Assembly: GCA_017938435.1 (NCBI GenBank)
Contig: JAGBBO010000008.1
Coordinates: 1 to 64,000 of the forward strand
Reading direction: 5' to 3'
From: Alphaproteobacteria bacterium
Lineage (GTDB): Bacteria; Pseudomonadota; Alphaproteobacteria; Rs-D84; CACZYB01
DNA length: 64,000 nucleotides
Shown: positions 43,557 through 48,019 of the stretch, piece after piece
Numbering within the stretch: position 1 is the stretch's first letter
Layout: each line of letters starts with the position of its first letter
The notes under the pieces: model-generated
What the model was told of the DNA's origin: nothing
What the model saw: the letters and a program-made list of their open reading frames with translations, nothing else
Databases searched by the model: none
Translations under genes and position numbers: made by a program

Positions 43557-44297
43557 ATGCAGAAGTTTTTTTTGAAGGTTAGATTTTTTTGTTTGACATT
43601 TTTTGCTTTTATGTCAGTAGTCTTGATGATTTTGCTTTTCAGGCAAAAACTTGTTTCTGATGATGCTTTTAAAATGACATATCCAGAAGTGGTTTTTGAA
43701 AATAAAATTTTATTTGATAGAGATTTGGCTATTTCTTCACTTAGGGATTTAATAGTTCCATTTTTGGAGCAAGATAAACTTTTGGATTTGGATATTGTTG
43801 CTTTATCAAATGAAATTATGGTTCTTCCTTGGGTGGAAAATGTTTCTGTTATTCGAGATTTTCCGAATGTTTTAAAAATTATTATCAAGCCAAAGGAAGT
43901 TATTGCATACAAGGCAAATGAAAATGGATATTATCCTATAGATAAAAATGGTAAAGTTTTAAATATGTCTGTTGAATATCAAAATGGTCTTTTGGTTTTT
44001 GGCGAGGAGGCGGAAGAAAACCTTTTGACATTGTTGGAATATTTAAAAAATTATCCGAATATTATGAAGAATGTTGTTGGTGTCCAATTTGTGAATAAGT
44101 TAAGGTGGAATTTGCTTTTTTTTAATATGGATGAAAGTGGTATTTTGGTAAAGTTGGATAATGATTTTGAAGAAGGTTTATCAAAATTGGCTGAACTTGA
44201 ATTTTTACAGGGAATTTTAAGTAAAAACATTTCAGAAATTGATTTACGAGATTTGGATAAAATTCTTGTAAAACAGAGGGGTAATTATGGGATTTGA
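43557..44297 (+). CDS. ftsQ: Cell division protein FtsQ
   Basis: 246 residues, single-pass inner-membrane divisome protein. Short cytoplasmic N-terminus, one helix (about 10-27, FFCLTFFAFMSVVLMILLF), a POTRA domain with LPWVENVSVIRDFPNVLKIIIKPKEVIAY, then the FtsQ beta domain (NKLRWNLLF, EIDLRDLDKILVK). AGGAATAAGGA precedes the ATG. It overlaps ftsA by 11 bp. murB and ddl, the usual neighbours in the division cluster, are not upstream. Confidence 0.88.
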   Translation: MQKFFLKVRFFCLTFFAFMSVVLMILLFRQKLVSDDAFKMTYPEVVFENKILFDRDLAISSLRDLIVPFLEQDKLLDLDIVALSNEIMVLPWVENVSVIRDFPNVLKIIIKPKEVIAYKANENGYYPIDKNGKVLNMSVEYQNGLLVFGEEAEENLLTLLEYLKNYPNIMKNVVGVQFVNKLRWNLLFFNMDESGILVKLDNDFEEGLSKLAELEFLQGILSKNISEIDLRDLDKILVKQRGNYGI

Positions 44298-45540
44298 TAG
44301 AAGAAAAACTATTGGTTTTATTGATGTCGCATCAGGCAAGGTGTGTGTTATGCTTATGTCTATTGATAAGGATTCAAATTTTTCTTTGATTGGTAGTGGA
44401 GAAGTGGAATCTTTTGGATATAAGGGGGGTAAAATTTTAGATTTTACTGCTTTTTCTAAATCAATAAACCAAGCCTTAGAAATGGCAGAAAAAGAAGCAA
44501 AAGAAAATATTTCTGATGTTGTGATTTCTCTTTCCGATTTTAAATATAAATCTTATTTTTTACCATCTAAAATAGGTTTTTCTTTTGAACGAAAGATAAC
44601 TGCAAAAGATATAAAAAATGTGACATCACTTATTCCTTTACAGCAAAATATTGATGTGGATAAAGAGGCTTTGGTTCATATTATTCCTATGGAGTTTATT
44701 ATTGATAATGATAAAATTGTTGATAATCCAGAAGGTGAAATTGCAAAAAATTTGACTGTGCATTATCATGTGATTACTGTTGATGCAAGGATGTATTCTG
44801 ATTTAATTTCTGTTTTCAAAAGTTTGAATTTGAATGTTAAACGAGTTGTTGCTGGTGGTTATGCTTCGGCTTTGGCAGTGTTGATTGAAGATGATAAAAA
44901 AGTAGGAAGTTTGGTTTTGGATATTGGAAAGTCAACTATGTCGGCTGCGATATTTATGGATGATAAACTTGTTTATAATTATTCGCTTCCTTTGGGTGGA
45001 GATGCAATTACAAATTCGCTTTCAAAACAAATAAATGTAAGGGTGGCTGAGGCAGAGCGTTTGAAAATAAAATATGGTGCAAAGGCTCCTGTTTCATTAG
45101 ATTTTTCTGATTATATAAATTTATTTATGATTGGGGAAAATGGCGAAAATGATGAGCAAGAAGTTTTGAAATCTGATTTTTTGACTGTTTCAAACAATAT
45201 TACAAAGGGATTTTTTTCGATTTTGAAAAAATGTTTGGATGATAGACGAGTTTTATCTTGTGTTCATCGTGTTGTTATTACTGGTGGTGGTTCAAAACTT
45301 TTGGGACTTAAGGATATAGTAAAGGATATTTTTAATTGTCCAGTGAGAATTGCAAAACCAATAATACAATCTGAACTTTCTGAAAAGTTTAATGAACCTG
45401 AATATTCAACTTTGCTTGGGCTTTTTGCTTTTTATAAAACAAAGGTTTCAGGGGATTATGTTTTTGAAACATCGGATGATGGGGATGGAAAAAATTTTTG
45501 GAATAAATTTATGAAATTTTGGATGGAAAATTTTGGATAG
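44287..45540 (+). CDS. ftsA: Cell division protein FtsA
   Basis: Actin-like protein that ties FtsZ filaments to the membrane. 417 residues: phosphate-1 region GFIDVASGKVCVM, SHS2/1C insert (about 85-165), phosphate-2 region VLDIGKSTMSAAIF and adenosine motif ITGGGSKLLGL. The C-terminal NFWNKFMKFWMENFG is an amphipathic membrane-targeting helix. The phosphate-2 motif is unusual: canonical DIGGGTT is DIGKSTM. It overlaps ftsQ by 11 bp and precedes a degenerate ABC exporter by 12 bp, where ftsZ would be expected. Confidence 0.9.
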   Translation: MGFDRRKTIGFIDVASGKVCVMLMSIDKDSNFSLIGSGEVESFGYKGGKILDFTAFSKSINQALEMAEKEAKENISDVVISLSDFKYKSYFLPSKIGFSFERKITAKDIKNVTSLIPLQQNIDVDKEALVHIIPMEFIIDNDKIVDNPEGEIAKNLTVHYHVITVDARMYSDLISVFKSLNLNVKRVVAGGYASALAVLIEDDKKVGSLVLDIGKSTMSAAIFMDDKLVYNYSLPLGGDAITNSLSKQINVRVAEAERLKIKYGAKAPVSLDFSDYINLFMIGENGENDEQEVLKSDFLTVSNNITKGFFSILKKCLDDRRVLSCVHRVVITGGGSKLLGLKDIVKDIFNCPVRIAKPIIQSELSEKFNEPEYSTLLGLFAFYKTKVSGDYVFETSDDGDGKNFWNKFMKFWMENFG

Positions 45541-45552
45541 AAAGGATTTAAT

Positions 45553-47361
45553 ATGGCAAATATAAAAAATCAAATTGCAAATGTGTATTATGATAAATCA
45601 AGGTATGATATTGCTTCGATTATTGCTCCGTTTAAAAAGGAAATAAAAAAGGTATTTTTACTTTCATTTTTTATTAATCTTTTGACGGTGATGATACCTC
45701 TTTTTGTTATGTTTTTGTTTGATGAAAAATTTAAGTTGTCACTTCAAGGGGATGGCCTTTTGAATTTGATAGTCCTTATTTCTGTTGTTTGTTTTAATTT
45801 TTTGTTTAGGTATGAAAGGGCGTCAGTTATTAACTTTATTTTGCGTTCTATTGATACTAATATTTGTAATGGAATTTTGGAAAAAGTTTTTAAAATTCCA
45901 GCAAAAAAAATGGAAAAGAAAAATGATGCGTTTTGGCATTCTGTATTTTCTGATATTGATGTAATAAGGAATGGGCTTTCTGGTTCTTATATTATCAATT
46001 TATTTGATATTCCATTTGTTCTTTTGTTTATGAGTTTTATTGGAATATTGCTTGGAAAATATTTCTTTGTTATGTTGTTTATTGCGTTATTTTATATAGT
46101 TGTTATTGTTTCAACAGGATACACTTTGGGTATAGTTGATGATAAGGAAAAATTGGCGATAAAGGAACGTGATGAACTTGTTTCAAATACAATTCGTGAT
46201 TTATCATCCCTTAAAAGCCTTTCTCTTTCTGATAAGGTTATGTATATGTGGAAAGATTATCAACGAGGAATTATTGATAATACATACAAGCGTAATTACA
46301 CATTGGATATGTTTTTGGTGATTGCATTTGTTATTTATTGTGTCGGGCTTGTAATTTTTTCACTTATTGGGGAACATTCTTATAATCTTGGGTTTATGAG
46401 TTTAGGGGCTTTGGTTGCGATACTTTTGCTTTTTTCACATAGTTTCTATCTTATAAATAATTTTATAAAATATTTTCCACAATATTTTAAGTTTTCTAAT
46501 TCAACAGAGCGTCTTGCACAGGTTATGGCAGAACAGGTTGATGCAATAAAAACAGAAGTTATTGAAGATATTACTTTGGGTAATATTGAACTTAAAAACT
46601 TTACATTGGAAGATAATAGAAATAATGTAATTTTAAAAGATGTTAATTTTACATTTAAAGATGGGCTTTTGTATGTGGTAAGGGCAAAAAATACATTTGA
46701 GGGTTCTTTGTTCTTGCGTTCACTTTTTGGTGGATACGAAGCATCATCTGGTGAAATATTATTTGATAGATATGATGTGTCAAATCTTAAGACTGATAGT
46801 TTAAAAGATTATATACATTATGCAAGTGAAACAGCTTTTGTTATGGAAGGGACAATCAAGGAAAATTTGACTTGTCTTGTTTCAAAAAATTCGGCTGATA
46901 ACAATTTTGCAGGTTTTATGGATTACAAAGAGGTTTCTAAACTTTTGGGATTTGATGAGATTGTTAAAGGTTTGCCAAATGGTTATAATACTTTGATTGC
47001 ACCAAAAACAGATTTGCTTTCTTTGGAAGAACTTAAACTTTTAAGTATTGTTCGTGTATTCGTAGGTAATCCACGAGTAATTCTTCTTGATCAGCCATTT
47101 TTGGGCTTAAGAAAGAAGTATAAAGAAAATATTATCAAGTTATTGCAAAGTATTGCAAAAGATAAAATTATTATTATTTCAACACAAGAAAAGGAACTTT
47201 CAAAGCGTTTGGTTTTGAATATAGAAGATGAAAAAATTTCGACTTTGACTGTGGAAGCGTTTGAAGATGCGTCAAAGGATTTGCAAAATAAAATTTATGG
47301 GGATGATATGGATCCATCGGAAACACATGCTTTGTTTAGAAGAATTTTTAGGAAAAAGTAA
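45553..47361 (+). CDS. ABC exporter with degenerate nucleotide-binding domain
   Basis: 602 residues. Residues ~1-320 form a six-helix ABC exporter membrane domain like those of type I secretion permease-ATPases (VFLLSFFINLLTVMIPLFVM, ending NSTERLAQVM). Residues ~335-570 align to an ATPase domain (GNIELKNFTL, VSNLKTDSLKDYIHYASE, IKENLT, LPNGYNTLIAPKTDLLSLEE), but the active-site motifs are lost: Walker A is VVRAKNTFEGS (374-384), the signature is LSLEEL (~488), Walker B ends LLDQP (~512) and the H-loop reads STQEK. The frame is intact, so it is kept, perhaps as a non-hydrolysing or structural protein. AAAGGA precedes the ATG. Confidence 0.8.
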   Translation: MANIKNQIANVYYDKSRYDIASIIAPFKKEIKKVFLLSFFINLLTVMIPLFVMFLFDEKFKLSLQGDGLLNLIVLISVVCFNFLFRYERASVINFILRSIDTNICNGILEKVFKIPAKKMEKKNDAFWHSVFSDIDVIRNGLSGSYIINLFDIPFVLLFMSFIGILLGKYFFVMLFIALFYIVVIVSTGYTLGIVDDKEKLAIKERDELVSNTIRDLSSLKSLSLSDKVMYMWKDYQRGIIDNTYKRNYTLDMFLVIAFVIYCVGLVIFSLIGEHSYNLGFMSLGALVAILLLFSHSFYLINNFIKYFPQYFKFSNSTERLAQVMAEQVDAIKTEVIEDITLGNIELKNFTLEDNRNNVILKDVNFTFKDGLLYVVRAKNTFEGSLFLRSLFGGYEASSGEILFDRYDVSNLKTDSLKDYIHYASETAFVMEGTIKENLTCLVSKNSADNNFAGFMDYKEVSKLLGFDEIVKGLPNGYNTLIAPKTDLLSLEELKLLSIVRVFVGNPRVILLDQPFLGLRKKYKENIIKLLQSIAKDKIIIISTQEKELSKRLVLNIEDEKISTLTVEAFEDASKDLQNKIYGDDMDPSETHALFRRIFRKK

Positions 47362-47362
47362 A

Positions 47363-48019
47363 ATGAGAAATAAAAAAGTTTTAGTTGGTGCAAGTATTTT
47401 ATCAGAAGATTTTTTTGATATTCAAAAGACTATTAAAAAATTGAATTCTTCGGATGTGGATTTTATACATTTAGATGTTATGGATGGAGTGTTTGTGCCG
47501 AATATTTCTTTTGGTCCGGCGTTTATTAAAAATATTCGCCCATATACAAAAAAGTTTTTTGATGTGCATTTAATGGTAAAAAATCCGTTGCCATATATTG
47601 AACGATTTGTGGAGGCTGGGGCTGATGCAATTTCTGTGCATATAGAGGCAAAAAATGCTATGAAATCGATAAAACTTATTAAATCATTTGGAAAAAAATG
47701 TTGTATTGTTGTCAATCCTAAAACTGATGCAAAAAAGGTTAAAAAGTTTTTGGATTTTGTTGATGCTGTTATGGTTATGACTGTTGAACCGGGTTTTGGT
47801 GGGCAAAAATTTATGGAAAATCAGCTTGTGAAAATTTCAAAAATTTCTAATTTAATTAAAAAGAGTGGTAGAAAAATTTCATTAGAAGTTGATGGAGGAA
47901 TAAATTTTGAAACAGGAAAACTTGCAGTGCAAAATGGGGTGAATATTTTGGTCGTTGGAAGTTTTTTGTTTAAGCAAAAAAAATTTAATGAGACAATATT
48001 GAAATTAAAATCTTATTAA
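47363..48019 (+). CDS. rpe: Ribulose-phosphate 3-epimerase
   Basis: Interconverts ribulose-5-phosphate and xylulose-5-phosphate. 218 residues of the TIM-barrel family: VGASILSEDFFD, HLDVMDGVFVPNISFG, FDVHLMV, AISVHIEA, MTVEPGFGGQKFM, LEVDGGIN, all canonical, with the metal-binding His and Asp pairs present. The start at 47363 lies one base after the ABC-exporter stop, with GGAAAAAG as ribosome site; coupled translation is likely. Confidence 0.95.
   Translation: MRNKKVLVGASILSEDFFDIQKTIKKLNSSDVDFIHLDVMDGVFVPNISFGPAFIKNIRPYTKKFFDVHLMVKNPLPYIERFVEAGADAISVHIEAKNAMKSIKLIKSFGKKCCIVVNPKTDAKKVKKFLDFVDAVMVMTVEPGFGGQKFMENQLVKISKISNLIKKSGRKISLEVDGGINFETGKLAVQNGVNILVVGSFLFKQKKFNETILKLKSY

Follow-up and report, generated by a model that had tools for sequence, protein, structure and literature searches.

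An apparently ATPase-dead ABC exporter kept beside ftsA in small-genome gut Alphaproteobacteria

Gene X and its locus

The window, which is the whole stretch of 64,000 nucleotides that we analysed, carries ftsQ, ftsA, an exporter-like gene and rpe in a row (Table 1). We refer to the exporter-like ORF at 45553-47361(+) as X, to the window's genome as G000 and to its family as f1. The hosts of X are a family of small-genome gut Alphaproteobacteria. X starts with ATG and runs for 602 aa without interruption, and the RBS-like sequence GAAAGGA lies 6 bases upstream. ftsQ and ftsA overlap by 11 bp, and 12 bp separate ftsA from X. The most likely start of rpe is the ATG at 47363, 1 bp past the stop codon of X.

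Table 1. Genes of the X locus and features within X, in window coordinates.
Feature	Position	Strand	Basis
ftsQ	43557..44297	+	POTRA_1 and FtsQ_DivIB_C domains (Pfam)
ftsA	44287..45540	+	TIGR01174, 251.8 bits (cut-off 175.85)
RBS-like GAAAGGA ahead of X	45540..45546	+	sequence
X, predicted ATPase-dead type I ABC exporter half-molecule, 602 aa	45553..47361	+	ORF, Pfam, alignment
X membrane domain, aa about 20-332, long helices (type I exporter-like)	45610..46548	+	PF00664, AlphaFold2 model
X pseudo-NBD, aa about 340-566	46570..47250	+	PF00005, AlphaFold2 model
ex-Walker A AKNTFEGSL, aa 378-386, no P-loop Lys, Phe382 in 10/11	46684..46710	+	alignment
ex-Q-loop Gln, here Glu426, Glu in 9/11 orthologues	46828..46830	+	alignment
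ex-signature LSLEELK, aa 489-495, invariant Glu492 in place of the second Gly	47017..47037	+	alignment
ex-Walker B VILLDQP, aa 509-515, Q/K/R/N in place of the catalytic Glu in every orthologue	47077..47097	+	alignment
ex-H-loop Ser543-Thr544, no His	47179..47184	+	alignment
conserved basic C-terminal tail ALFRRIFRKK, after variable acidic linker	47323..47358	+	orthologue comparison
rpe, ribulose-phosphate 3-epimerase, likely ATG 47363	47363..48019	+	PF00834, sequence

Pfam found ABC_membrane (39 bits) and ABC_tran (34.5 bits) on the one chain of X, both above their cut-offs. The AlphaFold2 model (pLDDT 76, pTM 0.51) has long membrane helices and an ABC-type alpha/beta domain. When the model was compared with the PDB by Foldseek, the best matches were HlyB, PCAT1 and PrtD. 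The TM-scores were only about 0.45 and the rmsd was large, which leaves the arrangement of the two domains relative to each other uncertain. Taken together, the domains, the model and the Foldseek matches indicate that the predicted fold of X is that of a type I ABC exporter.

The ATP site and selection on X

The motifs of X were read from an alignment with 10 canonical alphaproteobacterial type I secretion system (T1SS) exporters and 3 MsbA-type exporters, in all of which they were canonical or near-canonical. In X, Walker A has changed from GxNGxGK[ST]T to AKNTFEGSL, the signature from LSGG to LSLE and Walker B from DEP to DQP. An earlier note on this DNA had claimed that all ATPase motifs of X are degenerate. 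The alignment confirmed this claim, and all 11 orthologues are dead as well. The earlier note did not list four further losses: the Q-loop Gln, which is now Glu, the X-loop GExG, the D-loop LD, which is now LR, and the aromatic residue of the A-loop. It had also read the H-loop His as Gln, which was a small misalignment. The aligned residue is Ser543, or Thr544 under another gap placement, and His is absent either way.

None of the catalytic residues of an ABC ATPase (Walker A Lys, Q-loop Gln, LSGG, Walker B Glu, H-loop His) is present in X, and none is restored in any of the 11 orthologues in the alignment. X does keep ABC features beyond the ATP site, namely GTxxEN, LPxGYxT, R501, P507 and P515. 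Normal ATP binding does not tolerate bulky or charged side chains at the P-loop or in place of the second signature Gly. Judged by its sequence, X is missing every part of the composite ATP site and has almost certainly lost its ATPase function.

Orthologues of X were found in 10 genomes of f1 and in one genome (G016) of a second family, f2. Their frames are open and 582-607 aa long, with one cut by a contig end. The Walker A Lys, the signature Gly-Gly, the Walker B Glu and the H-loop His are lacking in all 11. At many former catalytic positions one new residue recurs across the orthologues: Glu492 in 11/11, Ser543 and Phe382 in 10/11 each, and Glu426 in 9/11. Where the Walker B Glu would be, every orthologue has Q, K, R or N. 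As far as the alignment goes, the former catalytic positions are re-fixed and not drifting.

We calculated dN/dS by the Nei-Gojobori method, with G000 and G004 as the main pair. For this pair, X has a dN/dS of 0.070 overall, 0.087 in the membrane domain, 0.050 in the pseudo-NBD and only 0.038 over the stretch from signature to H-loop. Other pairs gave 0.13-0.23, with dS near saturation, and the range across all domains was 0.04-0.24. Between G000 and G004, X is 91% identical, compared with 70% for FtsA and 68% for FtsQ. X was more conserved than both in every pair compared, at every distance. Among distant orthologues, conservation is higher in the dead NBD than in the membrane domain (46% vs 29% in G008). 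The substitution pattern indicates that X is under purifying selection for a non-catalytic function and is not decaying, and such a maintained role is very probable. The description of X as intact and maintained was thus borne out (602-aa open frame, dN/dS 0.07), as was the purifying selection that the earlier note had proposed to look for on the altered motifs (dN/dS 0.05 in the NBD, 11/11 orthologues dead).

The earlier note had named a pseudogene or a sequencing error in the motifs as possible refutations. A recent pseudogene, or sequencing or assembly errors, would account for the absence of every catalytic motif. However, X comes from 11 independent assemblies with full-length open frames (one ends at a contig end), and dN/dS stays at 0.04-0.24 in all domains. 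Because the 11 orthologues are from separate assemblies, chance or artefact is excluded, and we treat this explanation as ruled out.

Origin of X and gene order around ftsA

In a maximum-likelihood tree, the 11 rows of X form one clade with an SH-aLRT of 100. X and the alphaproteobacterial T1SS exporters are separated from the MsbA-type and other exporters of the same genomes, also with an SH-aLRT of 100. Whether X is sister to the T1SS exporters or nested in them hangs on a node with a support of 42. The T1SS ABC proteins LssB, PrtD and HlyB form the nearest branch and gave the best NCBIfam scores of X, with 191 bits to TIGR03375 (cut-off 693), 147 bits to TIGR01842 (cut-off 510) and 103 bits to TIGR01846 (cut-off 726). 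X differs from these proteins in that it scores far below every family cut-off and has no catalytic motif left. It also has an extra C-terminal linker and tail, and its genomes encode no HlyD-type adaptor above cut-off. By the tree and these scores, X is a former T1SS-type ABC exporter with a single origin.

No X-like gene was found in other orders among 385 genomes of the class at E <= 1e-60; the next relatives were canonical T1SS exporters. A scan of named genomes returned two loci only, both near copies of loci already found. One further candidate, the T1SS-like gene L107 of f54, gave a match that reached the C-terminus. It has intact Walker A and Walker B motifs and a HlyD-like neighbour, so it is an ordinary secretion exporter and was rejected.

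X lies directly 3′ of ftsA in 10 of the 10 genomes with both genes visible on one contig, and these represent two families, f1 and f2. In all 10 f1 genomes the next gene after X is rpe, which in one case is truncated by the contig end. G016 of f2 keeps ftsQ-ftsA-X, and no rpe was found downstream. ftsA is followed by rpe, with no X, in G011 (f2), G012 (f3), and G015 and G018 (both f6). By this comparison the order-level arrangement is ftsQ-ftsA-rpe, with X inserted into it. The earlier note had placed X at the position expected for ftsZ. This does not hold, because ftsQ-ftsA-rpe is the arrangement in the order's other families; X was inserted and ftsZ was not displaced. In X-bearing genomes ftsZ is intact on another contig or 10-20 kb away, and it is present in all f1 genomes tested. 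X as a replacement for ftsZ was therefore ruled out. A single gain of X close to the base of f1 and f2, followed by its loss in G011, could explain this distribution, as could a transfer of X between the two families.

Two other apparent patterns were dismissed. G003, from the same genus, seemed to have lost ftsA and X jointly. Its ligA lies 780 bp from the end of the contig, so the apparent absence is an assembly gap. Degeneration of FtsA specific to X-bearing genomes was unsupported, as FtsA evolves fast throughout the order.

Possible partners and proposed function

ABC exporters in which one of the ATP sites is weakened are a familiar class. In the degenerate-site heterodimers TM287/288, TmrAB, CydDC and TAP (reviewed in PMC7756269), an exporter half likewise has an altered signature, Walker B and H-loop. 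The changes there are partial: the degenerate site usually binds ATP and the other site is active. In contrast, neither Walker A nor either half of the composite site is left in X, and no partner gene adjoins it. With both sites dead, strong purifying selection across a bacterial family and a fixed place beside ftsA, X is unusual for a whole exporter. In the open-licence literature we found no fully dead exporter linked to ftsA; reviews cover single degenerate sites.

We looked for other ABC_membrane proteins in G000, G001, G002 and G004 and found only one in each, which is MsbA-like; the G000 genome is 93% complete, which leaves a small chance of an unseen partner. In G000 this protein scores 598 bits to TIGR02203 (cut-off 602). 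X could be the inactive half of a heterodimer with it, since an MsbA-type protein is present in every genome examined and exporters with one degenerate site are common as partly active heterodimers, usually still ATP-binding (PMC7756269). Such degenerate subunits usually keep Walker A and bind ATP, however, and by sequence the Walker A of X is lost. In addition, all 11 orthologues have Glu in place of the signature Gly with which X would contribute to the ATP site of its partner, so both composite sites of the heterodimer should be dead. MsbA shares the half-exporter architecture of X, but it has canonical motifs and falls on a separate, fully supported branch. The genes beside X are ftsA and rpe, neither of which encodes an active exporter half. 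We consider this pairing improbable. The suggestion in the earlier note that X works with an active partner is therefore weak at best. The search for an active paralogue did turn up the MsbA-like protein of G000, but this sits in a branch of the tree apart from X.

Two known roles for such a protein were also rejected. X does not fit the ABC protein of a type I secretion system, as no HlyD-type adaptor scored above the TIGR01843 cut-off in any of 13 genomes and none lies beside X. The best TIGR01843 match in G000 (54.5 bits) adjoins a separate ABC ATPase and looks MacA-like. FtsEX is an ABC-type regulator of the divisome, that is, an ABC-fold membrane system used for division control and not for transport. 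X does not replace it, since X-bearing genomes encode a true FtsE elsewhere and X is one chain with an ABC_membrane domain. FtsEX is a functional analogy only: the membrane fold of FtsX differs, and the ATPase activity resides in FtsE, a separate chain.

An ATP-independent conduit was also weighed, in which the membrane domain of X would passively let substrates through as a channel or facilitator, or scramble lipids, while the pseudo-NBDs served as a lock. The membrane domain is indeed kept under purifying selection (dN/dS 0.087). Its faster divergence than the NBD in distant orthologues is the reverse of what a conserved pore would lead one to expect, and the lack of a secretion adaptor above cut-off in the 13 genomes also speaks against it. 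We regard a conduit as quite unlikely.

Because the ATP engine is lost while other conserved residues are in place, X is probably a scaffold or regulator and not a pump. Of the functional classes, the "pseudo-transporter or scaffold" of the earlier note appears to be the best for X. We propose that X keeps the exporter fold without ATP binding or hydrolysis and is retained for a non-catalytic job. It would most likely form a homodimer in the inner membrane, with the pseudo-NBDs locked without ATP into a rigid platform on the cytoplasmic side. Expressed from the ftsQ-ftsA operon, X would assist the division apparatus as an accessory scaffold or regulator in the membrane, most likely with FtsA or FtsQ. 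The flexible acidic linker and the basic/aromatic tail would form a probable docking peptide. We give this reading of X, as a membrane protein of ABC fold that works with FtsQA as scaffold or regulator and catalyses nothing, a probability of roughly 0.4; homodimer, scaffold, division role and tail docking are all steps that we infer. The division role, taken from gene order, falls somewhat short of an even chance. Linkage to ftsA alone is no proof of shared function, as the gene on the other side of X, rpe, belongs to metabolism. That cells in other families of the order divide without X also counts against a division role. We know of no cultured strain of the X-bearing bacteria.

X could instead be a membrane protein for an envelope function other than division, such as a lipid or small-molecule sensor or an assembly factor, that uses the ftsQA operon for co-expression only. 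The metabolic third gene of the operon fits this, and so do the f3 and f6 genomes with ftsA-rpe and no X. However, the adjacency of ftsA and X extends to G016, which showed no rpe further downstream, and none of the other linkages of X is conserved over such a distance. We hold this alternative to be on the unlikely side.

The tail bears on the proposed scaffold in the division apparatus. It reads (R/H)(A/S)xF(R/K)(R/K) in 11/11 orthologues, a basic/aromatic motif behind an acidic linker of variable length. Of the roughly 190 ORFs in the neighbourhoods compared, only those of X end in the motif [AS]xF[RK][RK]. In the window, the last codons of X also hold AGGAAAA ahead of rpe. The tail is not just a ribosome-binding site for rpe, because it is kept in G016, which showed no rpe after X. 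The C-terminus of f1 FtsZ is EIPAIFKK or similar, a type of peptide that presumably binds FtsA in these species. ALFRR in X resembles it; the likeness is short and may be chance, and a docking role for the tail is a guess. A stronger version makes X a dedicated division protein derived from an inactive exporter: as a membrane-embedded pseudo-ABC dimer, it would use its conserved tail to recruit or regulate FtsA. This is improbable on present data, but if it were true, X might anchor FtsA or compete with FtsZ for FtsA. More broadly, X suggests that a scaffold or regulator in the membrane, with no catalysis of its own, can be made out of an exporter fold. Should X indeed take part in division, it would be an unexpected part of a reduced divisome in uncultured gut Alphaproteobacteria.

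Other observations in the order

G016 carries two adjacent ABC exporter genes (G016:C36:10563-13171; L059 and L084), and a pattern search found no standard Walker A in the first. By sequence the two resemble a common type of heterodimeric exporter in which one half is degenerate.

The division genes of the host order are clearly being rebuilt, with an FtsA-Rpe fusion and apparent FtsZ loss in the sister family f5. FtsZ/tubulin (PF00091) matched in only 10 of 129 genomes of the order (at least 90% complete), all in f1, f2 and f6. There was no match in the f4 and f5 genomes listed, which are G014, G023, G026, G027 (one contig) and G013. On this profile f5 looks like an FtsZ-less family of gut Alphaproteobacteria. 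In the f5 genomes examined, ftsA and rpe are fused in one frame of about 594 aa (L120:739-2523(-), L121:733-2508(-) and L124:697-2484(-)). The N-terminal part is FtsA-like, and a C-terminal ribulose-phosphate epimerase takes the place of the usual membrane-binding helix of FtsA. The fusion together with the apparent loss of FtsZ is more striking than X itself.

In G016, FtsZ (L055, G016:C29:39104-40090) has no usual C-terminal peptide, and FtsA is short (353 aa) with altered nucleotide-binding motifs. In G000, the 353-aa ORF L056 (G000:C39:11678-11977) has a C-terminal part that scores 32 bits against the C-terminal subdomain of FtsZ. Its N-terminal part is unrelated and phage-like, and is followed by a Glu/Val-rich linker. 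L056 is possibly a gene fusion or a chimeric contig.
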